Notes under the pieces: model-generated
Database searches by the model: none
Seen by the model: only the letters and a program-made list of their open reading frames with translations
What the model was told of the DNA's origin: nothing
IMG/VR virus record: IMGVR_UViG_3300042197_001631
Span: 1-21,741 of that record
Length of the DNA: 21,741 bases
DNA from: a virus
Direction: 5' to 3' (one strand)
Program-made: the position numbers and the translations under genes
Shown: positions 2,668-21,741 of the stretch, piece by piece
How positions within the stretch are numbered: the first letter of the stretch is position 1
Layout of the letters: every line of letters starts with the position of its first letter

Positions 2668-4687
2668 CGCTATTTCCTTGTGGCTGGGCCGGGCCGCCTT
2701 GCGGCGGTCCCTGCGGGGGCTGGGGAGGGGGGGCGCCCGGGGGAGGACCCGGTGGAGGCGGCGGAATCATGTAGCGTGACACGTCTATGTCCATGGCATC
2801 GCCAAAGTCTTGGACAAGCGCGTTGAACACAGACGGATTGCCAGATTGCAGGATGCCCTGCGCCACCGGCATGAGCACCTGCATGGCCTGCTGAATCTGC
2901 TCCACTTTCGTCGCCTTATTCGGCTTCCGCGCCGAACCGGCCTCCACGCGATAGGAGTACTCTCGCACCACGGCCTCGGGGTCCTCGGCCTTGACATGCA
3001 GCCCCCAGGCGTGGGCCGCCATTCCGCCCAGCAGCGGCGCAACGTCCTGCGGCTCAATCAGCCAGCGCGCCATCAACGCCTCTTTGCGGGCGACCTCCGA
3101 CAGGGCGTCTTCCAGAATGTTCGCGTAGTCGTCGGGGCGGACAGAAATTTGCTCCGCCTTTACCTGCGCCTCTGCCGCGCTCCTGAACTGGGAGCGGGTC
3201 ATGCCGTAAATTAGCTCAGTCAGGCCGACGCGGCGGTCGAAGAGGTTCGTGACCTCCGCAATGATCTGGTACATGTCCTGCGTGACCCCAGGCATCTGGA
3301 ACACAGAGATCACGTCGTTGACAGACCGGCCGATGGCTTCGGAGATTTCAACGATTTTGAATCCACCTTCCGCCTTCTCCAGAATCTTGGCCTTGATGTC
3401 CGGGTCTGCCGCCTTCGCCACGCCCACCAAGGTCTGTGAGCTTGTGGCGATGCGTGTCGCCAGAAAGCTCATTGCCCAGTTGATAAATCGAAGCTCCCCG
3501 ACTGCTGGGCGAATCAGCGAAATCGGCCATGAGTACCCGGGCTTGCCATGCCACGCCAATAGAGTGAATGGCCAGCCATTGGGCTCCAGCCAAAACGGAA
3601 TCGGCCATTGGACAGACTGGAACAGAGCTGGCGGCACGCCGGTTTCGTCCACTTCCGCAGAAAGCATCTGCGGCGGAATGTTGAGCGGAAAATTCACGCC
3701 CTCCGCGACAACGAGGTAGCAGTACGGCCCCAGCGAGTCGAAGACGCCCTTCAGGTCCTTGTCCCCGTCCTTCAGGCGGTCGCCAAAGCCGGTCTTGGAG
3801 TAGACTTCCCAATAGCAAATCAGGTCGTTGGTTTTACCGGCCTTGCGCTTCGTTTCGTACCCGCGAGCGTCCTCTTCTTCACGCGCGCGGTAGGACTCAA
3901 TGTGCCCCTGCAACTCCTCCGGGCGGATGCCGAACTTGTTGGCGACAAAGTCCAGCGGGTGAACTCGCTTGCGCGCGCACCACAGGATGTCCTCCGCCTC
4001 GTCTGCGTCCGGATCCCAGACGAGGTTGTCTACGCTGTCATGGAAACTGCCGGCGAGTTTGACGCTCGCCCCGGGTGGCTGGTACAGCTCATGCCACCAC
4101 ACGCCCGCGCCCTTGATGAACGCCTCTTCAACCGTTTTGCGGGAGTGTTGCTTTAAATTCAGCTCGGCGGGCGTGTAGTTCAGGTAGTCTTGGATGAGTT
4201 TGGCGATCAGCTCACGCCGGGCCCCCAGCATCTGCTGGGCGTTCATTGCCTGCTGGTACATCATCACGCCAGGGTCTGGCATCATCACGGGCTGCCCATC
4301 CGGCCCGACGGCAGGACGCCCGTCCGGGCCCATCTGCGGCATCGGCGGCCGTGGCATGATCCCCAAGAGCTGTGGCGGGATCACCGGGAACTTCTTTGGG
4401 GTAACGGTGCGCGTCGGGTTGCGGTGGTGGATGACTGCCGTGAACAGTCGGACGGCCTCCCAAACACGGTTGACCGTCATCCGGAAGGGTGGCGGGTCGA
4501 TCCCTTTGTTGTAGCCACGCTCTCCGCGCGCGTAGGCGTCCTTCCACATGAAGTCCGGGTCGCCAGCGAAGAAATTCATCGCTTCGTTGGCGTCGTCCTG
4601 GAAGGGCTTTTTATGCTTCCGGGCCAGTTCGATCTTCTTCAGCCAGCCCGTAACAATGGGCAAGAGCGGGCTGTCTGTGCTGGGCAT
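2651..4687 (-). CDS. Phage portal protein
   Basis: A 678-aa protein starting at ATG 4687 with AGGAG 6 nt upstream. The length is typical of large (P22-type-size) portals. The N-terminal third has the mixed aromatic and charged core common to portals (FAGDPDFMWKDAYARG near residues 40-55, FRMTVNRVWEAVRLF near 68-82), then a Pro/Met-rich insertion near 110-140. The middle has FINWAMSFLATRIATSSQT and a long helical region that would form the stem and wing. The C-terminus (about 645-678) is a low-complexity Pro/Gly/Gln tail. It lies two genes after the large terminase, the usual partner: the portal dodecamer forms the DNA channel on which terminase docks. No protease or MuF domain is fused. Confidence 0.85.
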   Translation of the reverse strand: MPSTDSPLLPIVTGWLKKIELARKHKKPFQDDANEAMNFFAGDPDFMWKDAYARGERGYNKGIDPPPFRMTVNRVWEAVRLFTAVIHHRNPTRTVTPKKFPVIPPQLLGIMPRPPMPQMGPDGRPAVGPDGQPVMMPDPGVMMYQQAMNAQQMLGARRELIAKLIQDYLNYTPAELNLKQHSRKTVEEAFIKGAGVWWHELYQPPGASVKLAGSFHDSVDNLVWDPDADEAEDILWCARKRVHPLDFVANKFGIRPEELQGHIESYRAREEEDARGYETKRKAGKTNDLICYWEVYSKTGFGDRLKDGDKDLKGVFDSLGPYCYLVVAEGVNFPLNIPPQMLSAEVDETGVPPALFQSVQWPIPFWLEPNGWPFTLLAWHGKPGYSWPISLIRPAVGELRFINWAMSFLATRIATSSQTLVGVAKAADPDIKAKILEKAEGGFKIVEISEAIGRSVNDVISVFQMPGVTQDMYQIIAEVTNLFDRRVGLTELIYGMTRSQFRSAAEAQVKAEQISVRPDDYANILEDALSEVARKEALMARWLIEPQDVAPLLGGMAAHAWGLHVKAEDPEAVVREYSYRVEAGSARKPNKATKVEQIQQAMQVLMPVAQGILQSGNPSVFNALVQDFGDAMDIDVSRYMIPPPPPGPPPGAPPPQPPQGPPQGGPAQPQGNSDGSPK

Positions 4688-7238: not shown

Positions 7239-8121
7239 TGATTTCCACCAGTCCCAGCGCGGCCTCCATGCGGGCGGACGGCCTGACGTCAATGATGCGG
7301 GCCGCGCCGTCGTGGCCGCTGGCCCACGCCTCTCGCAGCTTCTCTCCGACTCCGGCCGCGTCCAGCACAACGGGGCGATTTACGCACTTGGGCTTCCAGT
7401 GCCCAGCCCACGCATCCCAATTGCACATCACCGGGTTGTACCCGAGCGCAACGGTGCCGGCCAACGACAGGTCGCGAGTCTGCGTCACGTCCTCCGTGGA
7501 AGCCTTCTCGGCCGCATACTTGTCCTTCCATTCGTAGTAAAACCACGGCCTGCTTGTTTCGTCCTTTGGCTCCGTGATGTCAAAAGCCCGCATGTCGTAC
7601 ATGATCAAGCCAGTTGGGAGTGCGGCGCACTCCTGGATGCCGCTCATTCGCACCGCCGTGTGACGGTCGTACATCTCTAATTGAAAGTCAGGATTGGCGC
7701 TGTCGGAAGCCATGTTCTGCCACCGAAACACATACACGCACTCAGCCGGCGGCGGGCCGCAGTACGGAGCCCCGATTACGACCGGGCCCTTGTGGTAGTG
7801 CTTGGCCAAAAAATCGAAGGACGACTGGAAGAACGGCTTTGCGCCAGGGGCCGACTGGGCTGCATCCGGCCTCATGTCCGAGTCCACCATGACCAAGACA
7901 TCGACCGAGAACTGCCGCGCCATCAGGACCGCGCGGTTGCGGGTCATGGTGATGGGCGTGTCAGCTAGATTCCAGATGCGGATGTTCTCAATCCGCTCGT
8001 CCTTGCTAACCTCCGCGACCAGCGGGACCATCCACTCCCGTATGTCGGGAACCTCAGAGCTGATCCCGCCATTGCCACCGTAGGAGAACGTGCAAAAACC
8101 GACGTTGAACTTTTGCTTCAT
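7186..8121 (-). CDS. Glycosyltransferase-like protein (GT-A fold)
   Basis: A 311-aa protein. ATG 8121 is chosen because GAGG lies 5 nt upstream; the frame stays open further upstream, but that part overlaps another gene. Residues 5-15 form the first strand (FNVGFCTFSYG), TMTRNRAVLMA is at 58-68, and a DSD metal/nucleotide-sugar motif sits at 80-82 (VMVDSDM), as in family 2-like GT-A transferases. Downstream are VVIGAPYCG (114-122), PTGLIMYD (169-176) and a DLSLAGT / WDAWAGHWK region (217-243). It probably transfers a sugar, perhaps to a virion protein or phage DNA, since it lies between capsid and terminase genes. The acceptor cannot be read from sequence. Confidence 0.7.
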   Translation of the reverse strand: MKQKFNVGFCTFSYGGNGGISSEVPDIREWMVPLVAEVSKDERIENIRIWNLADTPITMTRNRAVLMARQFSVDVLVMVDSDMRPDAAQSAPGAKPFFQSSFDFLAKHYHKGPVVIGAPYCGPPPAECVYVFRWQNMASDSANPDFQLEMYDRHTAVRMSGIQECAALPTGLIMYDMRAFDITEPKDETSRPWFYYEWKDKYAAEKASTEDVTQTRDLSLAGTVALGYNPVMCNWDAWAGHWKPKCVNRPVVLDAAGVGEKLREAWASGHDGAARIIDVRPSARMEAALGLVEINATDKNVPAMQENAPSY

Positions 8122-11691: not shown

Positions 11692-12570
11692 CTATCGCAG
11701 CAGGCCGCCCAAGATGTCAGCCGCATCGTCAACGCTCCAAGAATTGCCGAGCGTGCGATAGCGTTGCGTGTCTGACAGGCCGCCTGTGTACCCCCGCGGA
11801 AACCCGAACAAGCCCTCAATCTCCTCGGGCGTTAACCTGCGAAGAGTGCCGTCATCTAGTCTCACGGCGTTGTACGGCACGCCCTTGTAGATCACGCTGG
11901 GGATGGTGCGGGCCTTCGGATCGTTAATGTCGAAGCCGTGGCGCTCAAAGTGCGTGCGGCCCGACTTTCCCGCCGGGCGGTACATGTACTCCGTGGCGCG
12001 GTCAGACAGGAGGTAGCGATCCGGCACCGCGGGTTGCAGAGCGTCCCGAAAGACGGCCGGCGAGTTAGCGGGCGGCGTCAGCGGTATGTCGGTCCACCAT
12101 AGCCTCTGCCGCTTCATCGGGCCGTAGTCCGCCGCGTCCCGCATCACGGGATCGACACCCAGCATCTTGGATATTTCTCGGATGTCGTCCTCGGCGCGAC
12201 GGCCCGTTGGGACGACGTTCTCCACCAAGAGGTGGCGCGGCTGAAGCTCGTCTACCACGCGGGCCATTTCGTACGCCAAGCCAGAGCGGTCGCCACGTAT
12301 GCCTTGCCCCTTTACGTTGGCGCGCGAAAGGTCTTGGCACGGAAACCCGGCGCACAGCAGGTCCACAGGCTCCCTGACTGTCTGCCGATTGACGTTGCGA
12401 ATATCGCCCAACTCCACGGCATCCGGGTAGTTCTTGCGAACGACCTGCGATGCGTACGGATCGATTTCGGCCGTGTATCGTCGGCTGACCGGCATGCCAG
12501 CTTGGTCTAGCGCCACATGCGCGCCGCCAATGCCGTCAAAGAGAGAGAGGAGGTTGAACCGCTGTCCCAT
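11692..12570 (-). CDS. DNA (cytosine-5) methyltransferase
   Basis: A 292-aa protein starting at ATG 12570, with no clear Shine-Dalgarno. All main C5-methyltransferase motifs are present: motif I SAM binding FDGIGG (11-16), motif IV with catalytic Cys78 (GFPCQDLS, 75-82), motif VI ENV (117-119), motif VIII QRLWW (155-159), a short variable target-recognition region (about 170-240), and motif X LGNSW (274-278). The protein is short for the family but complete. No restriction nuclease is adjacent, so it is an orphan phage methyltransferase, probably protecting phage DNA against host restriction. The target sequence cannot be predicted. It sits between 27-bp direct repeats, suggesting gain or movement as a unit. 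Confidence 0.95.
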   Translation of the reverse strand: MGQRFNLLSLFDGIGGAHVALDQAGMPVSRRYTAEIDPYASQVVRKNYPDAVELGDIRNVNRQTVREPVDLLCAGFPCQDLSRANVKGQGIRGDRSGLAYEMARVVDELQPRHLLVENVVPTGRRAEDDIREISKMLGVDPVMRDAADYGPMKRQRLWWTDIPLTPPANSPAVFRDALQPAVPDRYLLSDRATEYMYRPAGKSGRTHFERHGFDINDPKARTIPSVIYKGVPYNAVRLDDGTLRRLTPEEIEGLFGFPRGYTGGLSDTQRYRTLGNSWSVDDAADILGGLLR

Positions 12571-19462: not shown

Positions 19463-19479
19463 CGTGATGCATGGGCACG

Positions 19480-19512
19480 AAAAAGCCCCCCGGGGGTTAT
19501 CCCCCGGGGGGC
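19480..19512 (-). terminator. Strong rho-independent terminator after the 243-aa gene
   Basis: A perfect 12-bp GC stem (19485-19496 with 19501-19512), a 4-nt loop and, on the minus strand, a run of five T (19480-19484). It lies 26 nt past the stop of the gene at 19539 and should separate that gene from the structural series to its left. Confidence 0.9.
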
Positions 19513-19538
19513 GTTTCCTGGGCTGCGGTTGTTGGCGT

Positions 19539-20270
19539 CTATTGTGCCGCGGTGCTGATCCGGCAACGGATTGTCTGTCCCCGGACGCCTTTGGGCGTCA
19601 CGACGACGCAAACGTCCCGGGTTCGATCCGCCGCGGGTGGTGGCGGCTGGTGGCCGGCGAACCGATCGACCATTTCGATTTCTTCCCGGACCTCGCCGGC
19701 ATCGTACCGGATGACATGTCCTGTTCGGGGTGACGTCATTCTCCAACCGCATTCGATCTCAAACCGCTCCTCCCCATTTTCGATCCACGCCCGATTAACC
19801 TTCACGGTCGGCACAATCTTCCCATCGGTTTCCCGACCGGAGGCCGTCCCTCCGCGAACTTGCACAACCCCCCCCGGCACCACTCGCCCCGCTCGCCCCT
19901 GGACCGCCAGCAGGGCGTCCGGGTCGCCTTCGCATAATGCAACGATGGCGGACGGGTTGTCCCCTGCGGCTGTCATACTTGCCACGTAGGGATGCCACTG
20001 GCGCGTCCGTCGTTTCGATCCTGCTTTACCGCAGTGCCAGTTGGCACGCCGAAGGTAAGCGACGGGGCGATTGATTGCCCGGGCGACGTCGGTCGCATTG
20101 AACGGCGGGCCGTCTAAAAACAGTTCCACGGCGAACGCCACGCGGTCGTCGATCCACGATTCCCGGTGCGCCCTCGGGAGCTGCGGGGCGTGGCGACCAA
20201 TCCGACGCCTGTAGTGGGCTTGAAGGGCATCAAAGCTTCCGGGCATCGCTAGGTAGTCGAATGGGGACAT
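19539..20270 (-). CDS. Possible DNA-binding regulator in its own transcription unit
   Basis: A 243-aa protein. ATG 20270 (MSPFDYLAMPG) is chosen for its AAGGA site 8 nt upstream; the frame is open further upstream but that part overlies the promoter. Residues about 54-85 (FNATDVARAINRPVAYLRRA, then NWHCGKAGSK) look like a helix-turn-helix followed by a basic patch. The C-terminal half is beta-rich with WIENGEERFEIECGWRMTS and an RTGHVIRYDAGEV segment. The gene has its own promoters and a strong terminator and lies divergent from the plus-strand unit, the usual place of a phage switch regulator. The family is not recognised, so the regulatory role is inference. Confidence 0.6.
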   Translation of the reverse strand: MSPFDYLAMPGSFDALQAHYRRRIGRHAPQLPRAHRESWIDDRVAFAVELFLDGPPFNATDVARAINRPVAYLRRANWHCGKAGSKRRTRQWHPYVASMTAAGDNPSAIVALCEGDPDALLAVQGRAGRVVPGGVVQVRGGTASGRETDGKIVPTVKVNRAWIENGEERFEIECGWRMTSPRTGHVIRYDAGEVREEIEMVDRFAGHQPPPPAADRTRDVCVVVTPKGVRGQTIRCRISTAAQ

Positions 20271-20324
20271 GTTTTGAATCCTTATCCTTCCAGTGAATCC
20301 GCCGGGACGTCCGGCGTTGAGTCT

Positions 20325-20353
20325 ATTGTATCGTCCATTCCGCGATTGTGCAA
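20325..20353 (-). promoter_or_regulatory. Sigma70-type promoter for the 243-aa gene
   Basis: On the minus strand, TTGCAC (20348-20353), a 17-nt spacer, then TACAAT (20325-20330). Each box has four or five of six consensus bases. It is about 55 nt upstream of the ATG at 20270. Confidence 0.7.
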
Positions 20354-20354
20354 T

Positions 20355-20385
20355 AAAATTTTTATACCGCTCCTGCTTATACAAT
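20355..20385. repeat. Imperfect 30-nt element, first copy
   Basis: AAAATTTTTATACCGCTCC then TGCTTATACAATG; similar to 20471-20502 (AAAATTTTTCATACCGCCC, TGCTATATATGG). Both copies share AAAATTTTT, ATACCGC and TGCT in order. The copies are about 116 nt apart and both overlap promoter candidates. Confidence 0.55.
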
Positions 20386-20390
20386 GTCGA
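20361..20390 (-). promoter_or_regulatory. Second leftward promoter candidate
   Basis: On the minus strand, TCGACA (20385-20390), an 18-nt spacer and TATAAA (20361-20366); five of six consensus bases in each box. It lies in tandem upstream of the first leftward promoter and overlaps the 12-bp tandem repeat at its edge. Confidence 0.5.
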
Positions 20391-20413
20391 TTCGATGCTA
20401 TTCGATTCGATGC
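20387..20413. repeat. Tandem 12-bp repeat, possible operator
   Basis: TCGATTCGATGC occurs at 20387-20398 and again at 20402-20413, with a period of 15 nt. It sits next to the second leftward -35 box, so it could be a paired operator for a regulator such as the 243-aa protein. Confidence 0.6.
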
Positions 20414-20470
20414 GAAGAATGATGGTTTTCCGCGCCACAGACTTGGAAACCATGCGGGCAGGATGGGAGG

Positions 20471-20502
20471 AAAATTTTTCATACCGCCCATGCTATATAT
20501 GG
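20471..20502 (+). promoter_or_regulatory. Rightward extended -10 promoter candidate and second copy of the 30-nt element
   Basis: TGCTATATAT (20491-20500) fits an extended -10 box (TGnTATAAT-like); no good -35 is present, as often with extended -10 promoters. Transcription would start near 20507, shortly before the hammerhead ribozyme, and read into the plus-strand genes. Confidence 0.5.
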
Positions 20503-20537
20503 CGTTCCGTCCCGCGTGTTTTATGTCGTGCGTGACA

Positions 20538-20551
20538 CCCGCGTATGCGGG
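20538..20551 (+). other. Hairpin 5' of the ribozyme
   Basis: CCCGC-GTAT-GCGGG, a perfect 5-bp stem with a 4-nt loop just before stem II of the hammerhead. The sequence ACCCG..TATGCGGG around it resembles stem I of the ribozyme (20591-20604), hinting at a degraded duplicate. Confidence 0.55.
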
Positions 20552-20555
20552 CAGC

Positions 20556-20624
20556 GTAAAGGCCCAAGCCGAAACCGCCTAGTGCGGTCTACCCGTTATG
20601 CGGGTACTGATGAGGCCAACTTAC
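20556..20624 (+). ncRNA. Hammerhead ribozyme, type II (open at stem II)
   Basis: All conserved core parts occur in the right order. The stem II 3' strand GCC (20568-20570) is followed by GAAA (20571-20574). Stem III is A-CCGC / GCGG-U with loop CTAGT (20574-20588). The cleavage nucleotide is C17 at 20589. Stem I is TACCCG / CGGGTA with loop TTATG (20590-20606). Then come CTGATGA (20607-20613) and the stem II 5' strand GGC (20614-20616). The closing pairs A15.1-U16.1, U1.1-A2.1 and G10.1-C11.1 are all satisfied. Stem II can extend past an internal loop (CAA / GCCCAA) by CTTAC against GTAAAG with one bulge. Predicted self-cleavage between 20589 and 20590 would give the downstream gene an mRNA with a 5'-OH and a 47-nt leader starting with the stem I hairpin. 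Confidence 0.88.
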
Positions 20625-20636
20625 CCTGGAGGTGCT

Positions 20637-20978
20637 ATGTCTTCGGACGAGCGCGTCGGGGCCATTCTGGCGGCTCTCGCTGAACCCTTGGCCAAGCTCC
20701 GTGAGGCAGGCAATGTTGCCTGCCCCTCGGATGACTTGGCCCGGGAGGCCATTGAGGGATGCGTCAAGCGTGATGGCTCATGGCGCAAGACTAAGCCGGC
20801 GGATGGTCCGGCGGAGTTGCTCTGGCAACTGGTGAAGTTTCATCGCGGCTCGGGTTCCCTGTACGGGTTCCCGTGGTTCGCGGATGCGGGGCTCCGGGAC
20901 CAACTGGATACCCTCGCGGTTCTGCTGCTCGGCGGGCAGTCCTCTGCGGCTGCGGCTTGGCAACGGGCCTTGTCCTGA
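20637..20978 (+). CDS. Hypothetical protein directly downstream of the hammerhead ribozyme
   Basis: A 113-aa protein. ATG 20637 has GGAGG 4 nt upstream; the frame is also open from an ATG at 20598, but that lies inside stem I and the core of the ribozyme and has no ribosome site, so it is rejected. The protein is helical: SSDERVGAILAALAEPLAKL at the start, then DDLAREAIEGCVKR with DGSWRKTKP, then WQLVKFHRGSGSLYGFPWFA and a C-terminal Leu/Ala-rich helix. No known domain is recognised. It is the first gene of a rightward unit. Its mRNA should be processed by the ribozyme, and it is followed by 218 nt of structured RNA. Confidence 0.65.
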   Translation: MSSDERVGAILAALAEPLAKLREAGNVACPSDDLAREAIEGCVKRDGSWRKTKPADGPAELLWQLVKFHRGSGSLYGFPWFADAGLRDQLDTLAVLLLGGQSSAAAAWQRALS

Positions 20979-20984
20979 CGACGC

Positions 20985-21063
20985 CCGATCCCGGGCAGGT
21001 GGGCAGGGGTAGCGGCATTGCGTCCGCACTAAAGTCCCTGAGTGTTCGCCTGCCCGGGTTCGG
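20985..21063 (+). other. Inverted repeat / branched RNA structure 1
   Basis: The arms CCGATCCCGGGCAGG (20985-20999) and CCTGCCCGGGTTCGG (21049-21063) pair over 15 positions with a single T-T mismatch. The 49-nt interior can form smaller hairpins: GCGG / CCGC and CACT / AGTG. No U-run follows, so it is not a simple terminator. It begins 6 nt after the stop of the 113-aa gene. Confidence 0.65.
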
Positions 21064-21072
21064 TTGCCGTTT

Positions 21073-21169
21073 GACGGTGTCCGAATAGCCCCCTACAGGC
21101 TAGGTACCAGAAGAGGCCCAGGTGGCCTACCGGCTAGGTACCAGAAGAGGGGGCTATTCGGCTGCCGTT
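21073..21169 (+). other. Long inverted repeat enclosing two 25-nt direct repeats (structure 2)
   Basis: CCGAATAGCCCCCT (21081-21094) is the exact complement of 21148-21161. After one mismatch, seven further pairs including G-U extend the arms to 21073 and 21169, about 22 nt each. The 53-nt interior and arm edges contain two copies of a 25-nt element (21092-21116 and 21126-21150, 24 of 25 identical): CCTAC, A or C, then GGCTAGGTACCAGAAGAGG. Each copy can form a small CCTA / TAGG hairpin and contains the palindrome GGTACC. Between the copies is a short AGGCC / GGCCT stem. No U-run follows. It is either a structured RNA leader of the next gene or a DNA site such as an origin or recombination site. 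Confidence 0.8.
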
Positions 21170-21196
21170 CGGTAGTCGGTTCTACAGGAGGTGCGT

Positions 21197-21741
21197 ATGG
21201 TCGCAAGATCACGCACCGCCCGGCCCCTTGGTGTCATCTTGCACCGAGGTGTCTCGCCATTCGATGGCTCGCCCTATGTGGTCATCATGCCACTGGGCAA
21301 GTCTTCTAATGCGAAGACGGGGAGCATGCTCCAGACCTACATTATTAGGTCGCATGTGCATCCGGTCGCAGCGGTGCAATCAGGTGGCGATCTGGCCATC
21401 TGCGGTAACTGCGTCATGCGTGGGCTGGTTGCCACGCAGAAGCGCCGCAACCGGAAGAAAAAGAACTTCCGGGCGTGCTATGTCAACGTAGGCCAGGGCC
21501 CTGCCATGGTCTACGGTGCGTTCAGGCGTGGTCGATACGTGGACTACAGTCCCGCCGACCATGACCAGTTCATCCGTGGTCGCAAGATCCGGTTTGGCAC
21601 ATACGGGGAGCCTGTCCTGATCCCCCTGGAGTTGCTCCGCCATCTGGCAGACATCTCCGGCGGCTGGACGGGCTACACCCACCAGTGGGCCAACCTCGGT
21701 TTCCGAGACTACCAGCGGTTCCTCATGGCCTCAGTCCATGG
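21197..21741 (+). CDS. Conserved uncharacterised phage/plasmid protein (partial, C-terminus off window)
   Basis: The frame is open from ATG 21197 to the window edge, 181 residues. AGGAGG lies 5 nt upstream, one of the strongest sites in the window. The sequence matches a family I recall from phages and plasmids of GC-rich bacteria: start with SPFDGSPYVVIMPLGKSSNAKTG in pieces (about 20-42), MLQTYIIRSHVHPVAAVQSG (about 44-63), CGNC at 69-72 followed by CYVNVGQGPAMVYGAFRRG (about 93-111), a basic KxRFGTYGEPVLIP block, and SGGWTGYTHQW near residues 155-165. The Cys pair plus a later Cys could bind metal. The function is unknown in the family. The gene lies downstream of the two inverted-repeat structures and may share the ribozyme-processed transcript. 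Confidence 0.8.
   Translation, partial: MVARSRTARPLGVILHRGVSPFDGSPYVVIMPLGKSSNAKTGSMLQTYIIRSHVHPVAAVQSGGDLAICGNCVMRGLVATQKRRNRKKKNFRACYVNVGQGPAMVYGAFRRGRYVDYSPADHDQFIRGRKIRFGTYGEPVLIPLELLRHLADISGGWTGYTHQWANLGFRDYQRFLMASVH

Follow-up and report, generated by a model that had tools for sequence, protein, structure and literature searches.

The inverted repeat studied here lies in a virus record of 21,741 bases (the window, that is, the whole stretch of DNA analysed) and is one unit, module B, of an array in tandem with a second hairpin, module A, and with a small tail hairpin placed ahead of the ribosome-binding site of the next gene. The array stands between a gene that is exchanged from phage to phage and a gene that is held constant; its stems covary, and its modules have repeatedly been replaced one at a time. 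We take it to be an intercistronic structured RNA that would separate and protect the messages of the exchangeable and the constant gene, with the arms of its hairpins doubling as borders for exchange, and we give this reading an even chance of being right.

The array and its neighborhood

The head genes of the window, including those for terminase, portal and major head protein, run leftward, and a rightward operon begins at the right end. The features of that operon are:

20541..20555, plus strand: leader palindrome GCGTATGCGGGCAGC, left border of the cassette, conserved in most relatives
20567..20621, plus strand: hammerhead ribozyme of type II within the cassette gene's 5' leader (RF02276; predicted cleavage after 20589, GUC)
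20637..20978, plus strand: exchangeable cassette gene of 113 aa, matching no family; module A opens with its stop codon
20976..21071, plus strand: hairpin module A (inverted repeat 20978-21070; covariance model R1; outer-stem covariation)
21059..21085, plus strand: A/B boundary, alternative hairpin TTCGGTTGCCGT-TTG-ACGGTGTCCGAA (from the sequence)
21074..21168, plus strand: hairpin module B, the inverted repeat under study (inverted repeat and covariance model R2)
21092..21116, plus strand: first 25-nt unit, inside module B (repeat search; private to the window genome)
21126..21150, plus strand: second 25-nt unit, inside module B (repeat search; private to the window genome)
21158..21179, plus strand: tail hairpin TCGGCTGCC-GTTC-GGTAGTCGG, which folds in all 58 arrays
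21186..21191, plus strand: ribosome-binding site AGGAGG of the downstream gene (from the sequence)
21197..21741, plus strand: downstream gene of the phrog_2554 family (E 4.2e-38), running off the contig end

The inverted repeat of module A, directly 5' of module B and part of the same array, had been overlooked in the first-pass annotation. Relatives were reached through the downstream gene: 33 close phrog_2554 loci were found in IMG/VR, each with a hairpin directly 5' of the gene, and the pattern of the 3' arm then led to loci before a GP88 protein (PF17338) and before a second GP88 subfamily. A further array lies on a 55-kb contig (L246) binned with a Pirellulaceae MAG, which is a weak hint as to the host. 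In all, 58 arrays were parsed in related uncultivated phages, the window included, with module A in 56, module B or a B-like module in 28 (two of these being the B-like variant), the tail hairpin in 58, and 48 distinct A and 25 distinct B sequences; these are not independent lineages, some arrays coming from overlapping or near-identical contigs and two from a single 118-kb contig. The module B pattern occurs as one array per contig in the 33 contigs searched. More distant phrog_2554 loci (42-51% identity) gave no matches to the module models R1 and R2, and the module family therefore seems confined to this phage lineage.

The modules are built on constant outer arms, ACGGYGTCCGAA-like on the 5' side and TTCGGYTGCCGTT on the 3' side (TRACGR..TCCGATCCCGGGCAG and CTGCCCGGGTTCGGYTGCCGTT in module A, ACGGTGTCCGAATAGCC and GGCTATTCGGCTGCCGT in module B), enclosing an exchangeable interior that varies widely: lengths range from 54 to 113 nt for A and from 81 to 213 nt for B. 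Since the 3' arms all end alike and the 5' arms all begin alike, every boundary between modules is itself a small hairpin, built like the A/B boundary of the window. After the last module, the strand GGTAGTCGG completes the tail hairpin in 58 of 58 arrays; the 5' strand of that hairpin is the 3' strand of the module B outer stem, so that the two structures are mutually exclusive. At the other end, about 49 of 57 loci examined have module A opening at the upstream gene's stop codon; in six arrays the two are separated by a spacer (about 36 nt or longer) whose sequence is the same after unrelated genes. Extra modules (C) lie between A and B in L018, L209, L228, L230 and L246.

Some of these longer arrays have features of their own. 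A complete ORF (MDYMSEYDWWVDPDRAG...) lies between A and B in L227 and ends shortly ahead of GCGCCGTTTCTACGG. Three modules stand in tandem in L230 (2564-3001) and in L089, the middle one with the arms AGCGTTCACGG / CCGTGAACGC. In L246 the C module (reverse strand, about 7690-7860 in reverse-complement coordinates) contains a stretch resembling a tRNA T-arm, GCGGGTTCGATCCCCGTAGC; ARAGORN finds no tRNA in this module, and that candidate was dropped.

Evidence for a conserved RNA structure

The outer stem of module A has five pairs changed on both sides, and its covariation score is reached by none of 500 shuffles, although a count of such pairs by itself does not exceed that in shuffles (162/500). 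In columns 17-20 of this stem the departures are all G-U and none A-C, which fits a plus-strand RNA. In the tail hairpin 92% of cells are paired, one pair occurs in five standard types, and the covariation score, again reached by 0 of 500 shuffles, exceeds all slid controls. For module B the covariation is thin because most columns of the outer stem never vary; the B1 class has six pairs with both sides changed. Homologues thus keep the inverted repeat and alter it in compensating fashion, the very point on which the first-pass annotation had made its proposal of a conserved, structured intergenic element depend, and that proposal stands.

Covariance models agree with this. R1 matches module A with 85.2 bits (E 7.6e-21), the window sequence being among those from which R1 was built; R2, built on the B1 class with the window left out, matches the window's module B with 39.6 bits (E 3.3e-7). 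R1 also matches the window's module B (E 0.0075), which supports a common design of A and B. Folding energies are low throughout (mean z of -5.4 for A and -5.8 for B); the comparison of folding energies between strands was discarded as evidence, since flanking coding sequence has the same bias. Some interiors form recognizable classes (A1, B1) with covarying stems and conserved unpaired letters; that of L013 is short and simple (54 nt in all). Searches of Rfam (no match at or near gathering score for modules A and B) and of the reference phage collection (no blastn match to the modules) make the module classes new to both, as searched.

The tandem units of the window

In the repeat search the arms of the window's module B (21074-21094 and 21148-21168) are 21 nt long and 86% complementary, with 53 nt between them, and the two 25-nt units are 96% identical at a spacing of 34, each with a GGTACC. 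That the repeat and its two units exceed chance, as had been judged from the letters, is borne out by several tests: 1) within 20979-21196 the best pair of 21-nt arms agrees at 18 of its 21 positions, the best of 60 dinucleotide shuffles at 15; 2) the region folds with -67.8 kcal/mol (z -4.9), and 0 of 200 shuffles are equally stable; 3) the 19-mer core of the units, with up to three mismatches allowed, occurs at only these two places in the window, 0 being expected in shuffles.

The further idea that the tandem GGTACC motif is the functional core is not supported by comparison. The motif is absent from the other 57 arrays, and an exact 19-mer search of IMG/VR gave no matches, so that the motif is private to the window genome; in the predicted fold its two copies pair with each other within the module B stem. 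The window's module B interior is a private tandem duplication, and the suggested kissing of palindromes between copies or molecules, like the suggested iterons, loses its basis with it. A pattern for B with an interior of 40-70 nt found no matches because other B interiors are longer or shorter. At the hairpins of the window no intrinsic terminator (a GC-rich hairpin followed by a U-run) was found, and neither a U-run nor an intrinsic terminator at those of L004; this agrees with the earlier opinion that the element, with no U-run after it, does not look like a terminator.

Exchange of genes and modules

A tree built on 32 downstream genes requires at least 18 changes of the upstream gene, 13 of the A type (one or two A labels being coarse) and 10 of the B type. 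Close pairs differ by the clean, single replacement of one module or gene. In L006 and L008 the leader, A, B and the gene are 91-99% identical and the cassette 40%, identity resuming at the leader palindrome, beyond the replaced cassette; in L203 and L221 the cassette and B are 99-100% identical and A 49%; in L032 and L026 the genes before and after A are each 98% identical and A 65%. The A module of L033 joins a 5' arm from one A class to a 3' arm from a second, and such chimeric arms suggest crossovers within the arms. The hairpins, then, border repeated exchange of genes and modules, and the early proposal of a recombination site is to this extent partly upheld, a site-specific reaction being no more than a candidate.

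What might carry out the exchange? An Erf single-strand annealing protein is encoded in 13 of 13 near-complete relatives, with an exonuclease VIII-like gene adjoining the Erf gene in the one relative examined. The same 13 all have a serine recombinase, and nine of them a tyrosine recombinase (PF00589; four over the cut-off). Erf-type annealing proteins are described as promoting recombination between short, diverged sequences (PMC3945230, PMC8093625). For the exchange seen here, we infer, the simplest agent would be Erf working on the conserved arms. A near-complete relative phage (L290) also has a subtilase-family protease gene (G005:C1 451-1413, minus strand).

A proposed intercistronic RNA with borders for exchange

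The preferred reading joins these observations as follows. The array would be part of the phage's early rightward transcript. Module A, from the stop codon on, would usually form the 3' end of the exchangeable gene's message, and the last module with the tail hairpin would be the leader of the next gene; as RNA, the hairpins would give the cassette gene a stable 3' end and the gene that follows, of GP88 type or phrog_2554, a structured 5' leader. Processing by a nuclease or ribozyme would probably be involved in separating the two messages. Unrelated genes could then enter the operon with the expression of the constant gene undisturbed. The arms, because all are alike, could also provide the short homologies for exchanging cassettes, the interiors of modules and modules as a whole. 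Against this, early genes can be exchanged in phages without dedicated borders.

This is a concrete example, densely sampled, that resolves the borders of early-gene exchange in phages to single bases: the same arms follow at least 13 different ORFs, which take the cassette position among the relatives, and precede three types of downstream gene, phrog_2554 and the two GP88 subfamilies, and single modules have been replaced between near-identical genomes. It can now be tested whether structured RNAs shield an operon from gene swapping while serving an annealing protein as short homologies.

Comparison with known systems

In T7-like phages the early genes are separated by RNase III processing hairpins, which are long imperfect intercistronic stems. 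The modules described here are of the same general form; conserved arm sequences and modular interiors like theirs are not known from the T7 sites.

Closer still are the promoter early stem-loops (PeSL; Arbiol 2010, Comeau 2014) that lie between the shuffled early genes of T4-type phages (PMC4503421). Like the array, they are non-coding stem-loops between small exchangeable early genes, and they border a gene shuffling that probably proceeds by homologous recombination. PeSLs contain an early promoter; in the array none was found (0 promoter-like sites of the early sigma-70 type in window 20400-21300 and in L004, with the proviso that the host's promoter type may differ), nor a U-run. The array also departs from PeSLs in being present once per genome at one locus (by the module B pattern), in a different phage lineage, and in its tandem modules, exchangeable interiors and covarying tail hairpin. 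By analogy the array would seem to work most like PeSL elements; it is not filed among them because no promoter was found inside it and no U-run. It is instead to be described as an intergenic hairpin associated with gene shuffling and built of tandem modules whose interiors are exchangeable; no description of such a build was found in the open-access literature.

A third likeness is to phage hammerheads, type II ribozymes near exchangeable genes, one of which lies in this very operon. Modules A and B themselves have no hammerhead core and match no Rfam ribozyme. The window's hammerhead scores 29.8 bits against RF02276 (E 0.0011), under the Rfam gathering score of 37; its homologue in L015 scores 39, above it. 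All core nucleotides (CUGANGA, GAAA, UH) are present in the window with three stems, and the hammerhead recurs with compensatory stem changes in 10 relatives (L008, L009, L011, L012, L015, L016, L204, L212, L228 and L246). For hammerheads flanking changing phage genes, Perreault et al. (2011, PMC3088659) propose that long transcripts are cut by them into messages of one gene each, which fits the reading preferred here. (A technical note: a hammerhead shares the operon in 11 arrays, all 11 with module B, but this association (Fisher p 9e-5) fails once relatedness is allowed for, there being only 4 independent pairs.)

In most relatives a near-identical GC(A/G)TATGCGGGCAG or GCATGCGGGCAG precedes the first cassette gene on its 5' side. 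At window 20536-20555 and in the relatives this conserved leader, with GTAACGTATTAC-like and GCATGCGGGCAG palindromes, sits between the divergent operons, and is possibly the operator and promoter of both.

Other readings

Could the array instead be an RNA switch, in which the 3' strand of the last module has a choice of partner, the 5' arm of that module or the tail strand, and so controls translation or termination before the downstream gene, possibly as set by a ribosome halting at the stop codon of the cassette gene? The mutually exclusive pairing is conserved with compensatory changes, and A does begin at that stop codon in most loci. Partition functions have the A stem and the tail hairpin competing, and in arrays without B the predicted tail hairpin climbs from 0.29 to 0.88 when the first 14 nt of A are masked. 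This rise, however, is a trivial result of masking; predicted access to the ribosome-binding site is unchanged by it (0.31 to 0.28) and shows no consistent change in the partition functions generally, and arrays with B, the type of the window, have no masking effect (0.24 to 0.25). The want of a terminator and the spacer that sets A apart from the stop codon in six arrays also tell against a switch. Its translation-coupled form, acting on the ribosome-binding site, was rejected for having no predicted effect on access; the reading as a whole we consider rather unlikely.

The array may also be thought of as a cassette platform: hairpin modules with constant ends, as RNA or DNA, at which a phage-encoded recombination system would bring in, take out and recombine protein genes as well as structured-RNA units, all at a single locus. 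If this were true, early genes and RNA modules would be interchangeable and form a pool common to the phage population. We regard it as a possibility to be kept in mind, though an improbable one.

A site-specific, integron-like platform, in which a phage recombinase would use the folded hairpins and move cassettes and modules at their conserved GCCGTT ends, seems doubtful to us. Like integron attC sites, the modules are imperfect hairpins with constant ends and a variable terminal part, 3' of exchangeable ORFs; cassette borders are fixed at both ends, a whole gene has come to lie between A and B in L227, direct repeats of TTCGGYTGCCGTT flank the modules after A, and recombinases of the serine and tyrosine families are at hand in 13 and 9, respectively, of the 13 near-complete relatives. 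The module ends, TRACGR... and GCCGTT, then CGG, GTG, TCT or AGC, do not fit the attC R boxes RYYYAAC and GTTRRRY, and membership in the attC class was rejected on that account; there are no cassette arrays of many genes and no constant integron integrase, four of the 13 element-bearing relatives are without the tyrosine recombinase, and a single array is present per contig in the contigs searched for module B. Exchange, moreover, extends to the interiors (L203/L221), an outcome that cuts confined to the ends would not produce, and the chimeric arms of L033 suggest a crossover inside the arms.

The interiors might, on the other hand, be separate functional RNAs (decoys, aptamers or anti-defence RNAs), with the arms only their carrier. 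The conserved A1 and B1 classes would suit such a role, and the interiors spread between genomes independently of neighbouring genes; but others, such as that of L013, are short and simple, the one in the window is a private duplication, and there is no Rfam match, all of which makes this account quite improbable. A replication origin or packaging signal, suggested by a skew inflection near the locus and divergent transcription, is very improbable: the 25-nt repeats are not conserved in the other arrays, the element lies inside an operon, and in a near-complete relative the inflection of the GC skew, whose plot had been proposed as the check, coincides with the switch in transcription direction, which explains it, the lowest point lying elsewhere.

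Neighbouring features

Some further features of the locus and of the window can be recorded. The downstream gene is either phrog_2554 or one of the two GP88 subfamilies (PF17338; L202 and L225, both at 3001); all three types have several cysteine residues towards the N-terminal half. An inverted repeat at window 19479-19518 (18-nt arms, 4-nt loop), close to the 3' part of the leftward ORF 19539-20453 or just past it, has the appearance of a terminator-type hairpin. Amid the head genes, at window 11695-12570 on the minus strand, there is a gene for a C-5 cytosine DNA methyltransferase (PF00145).
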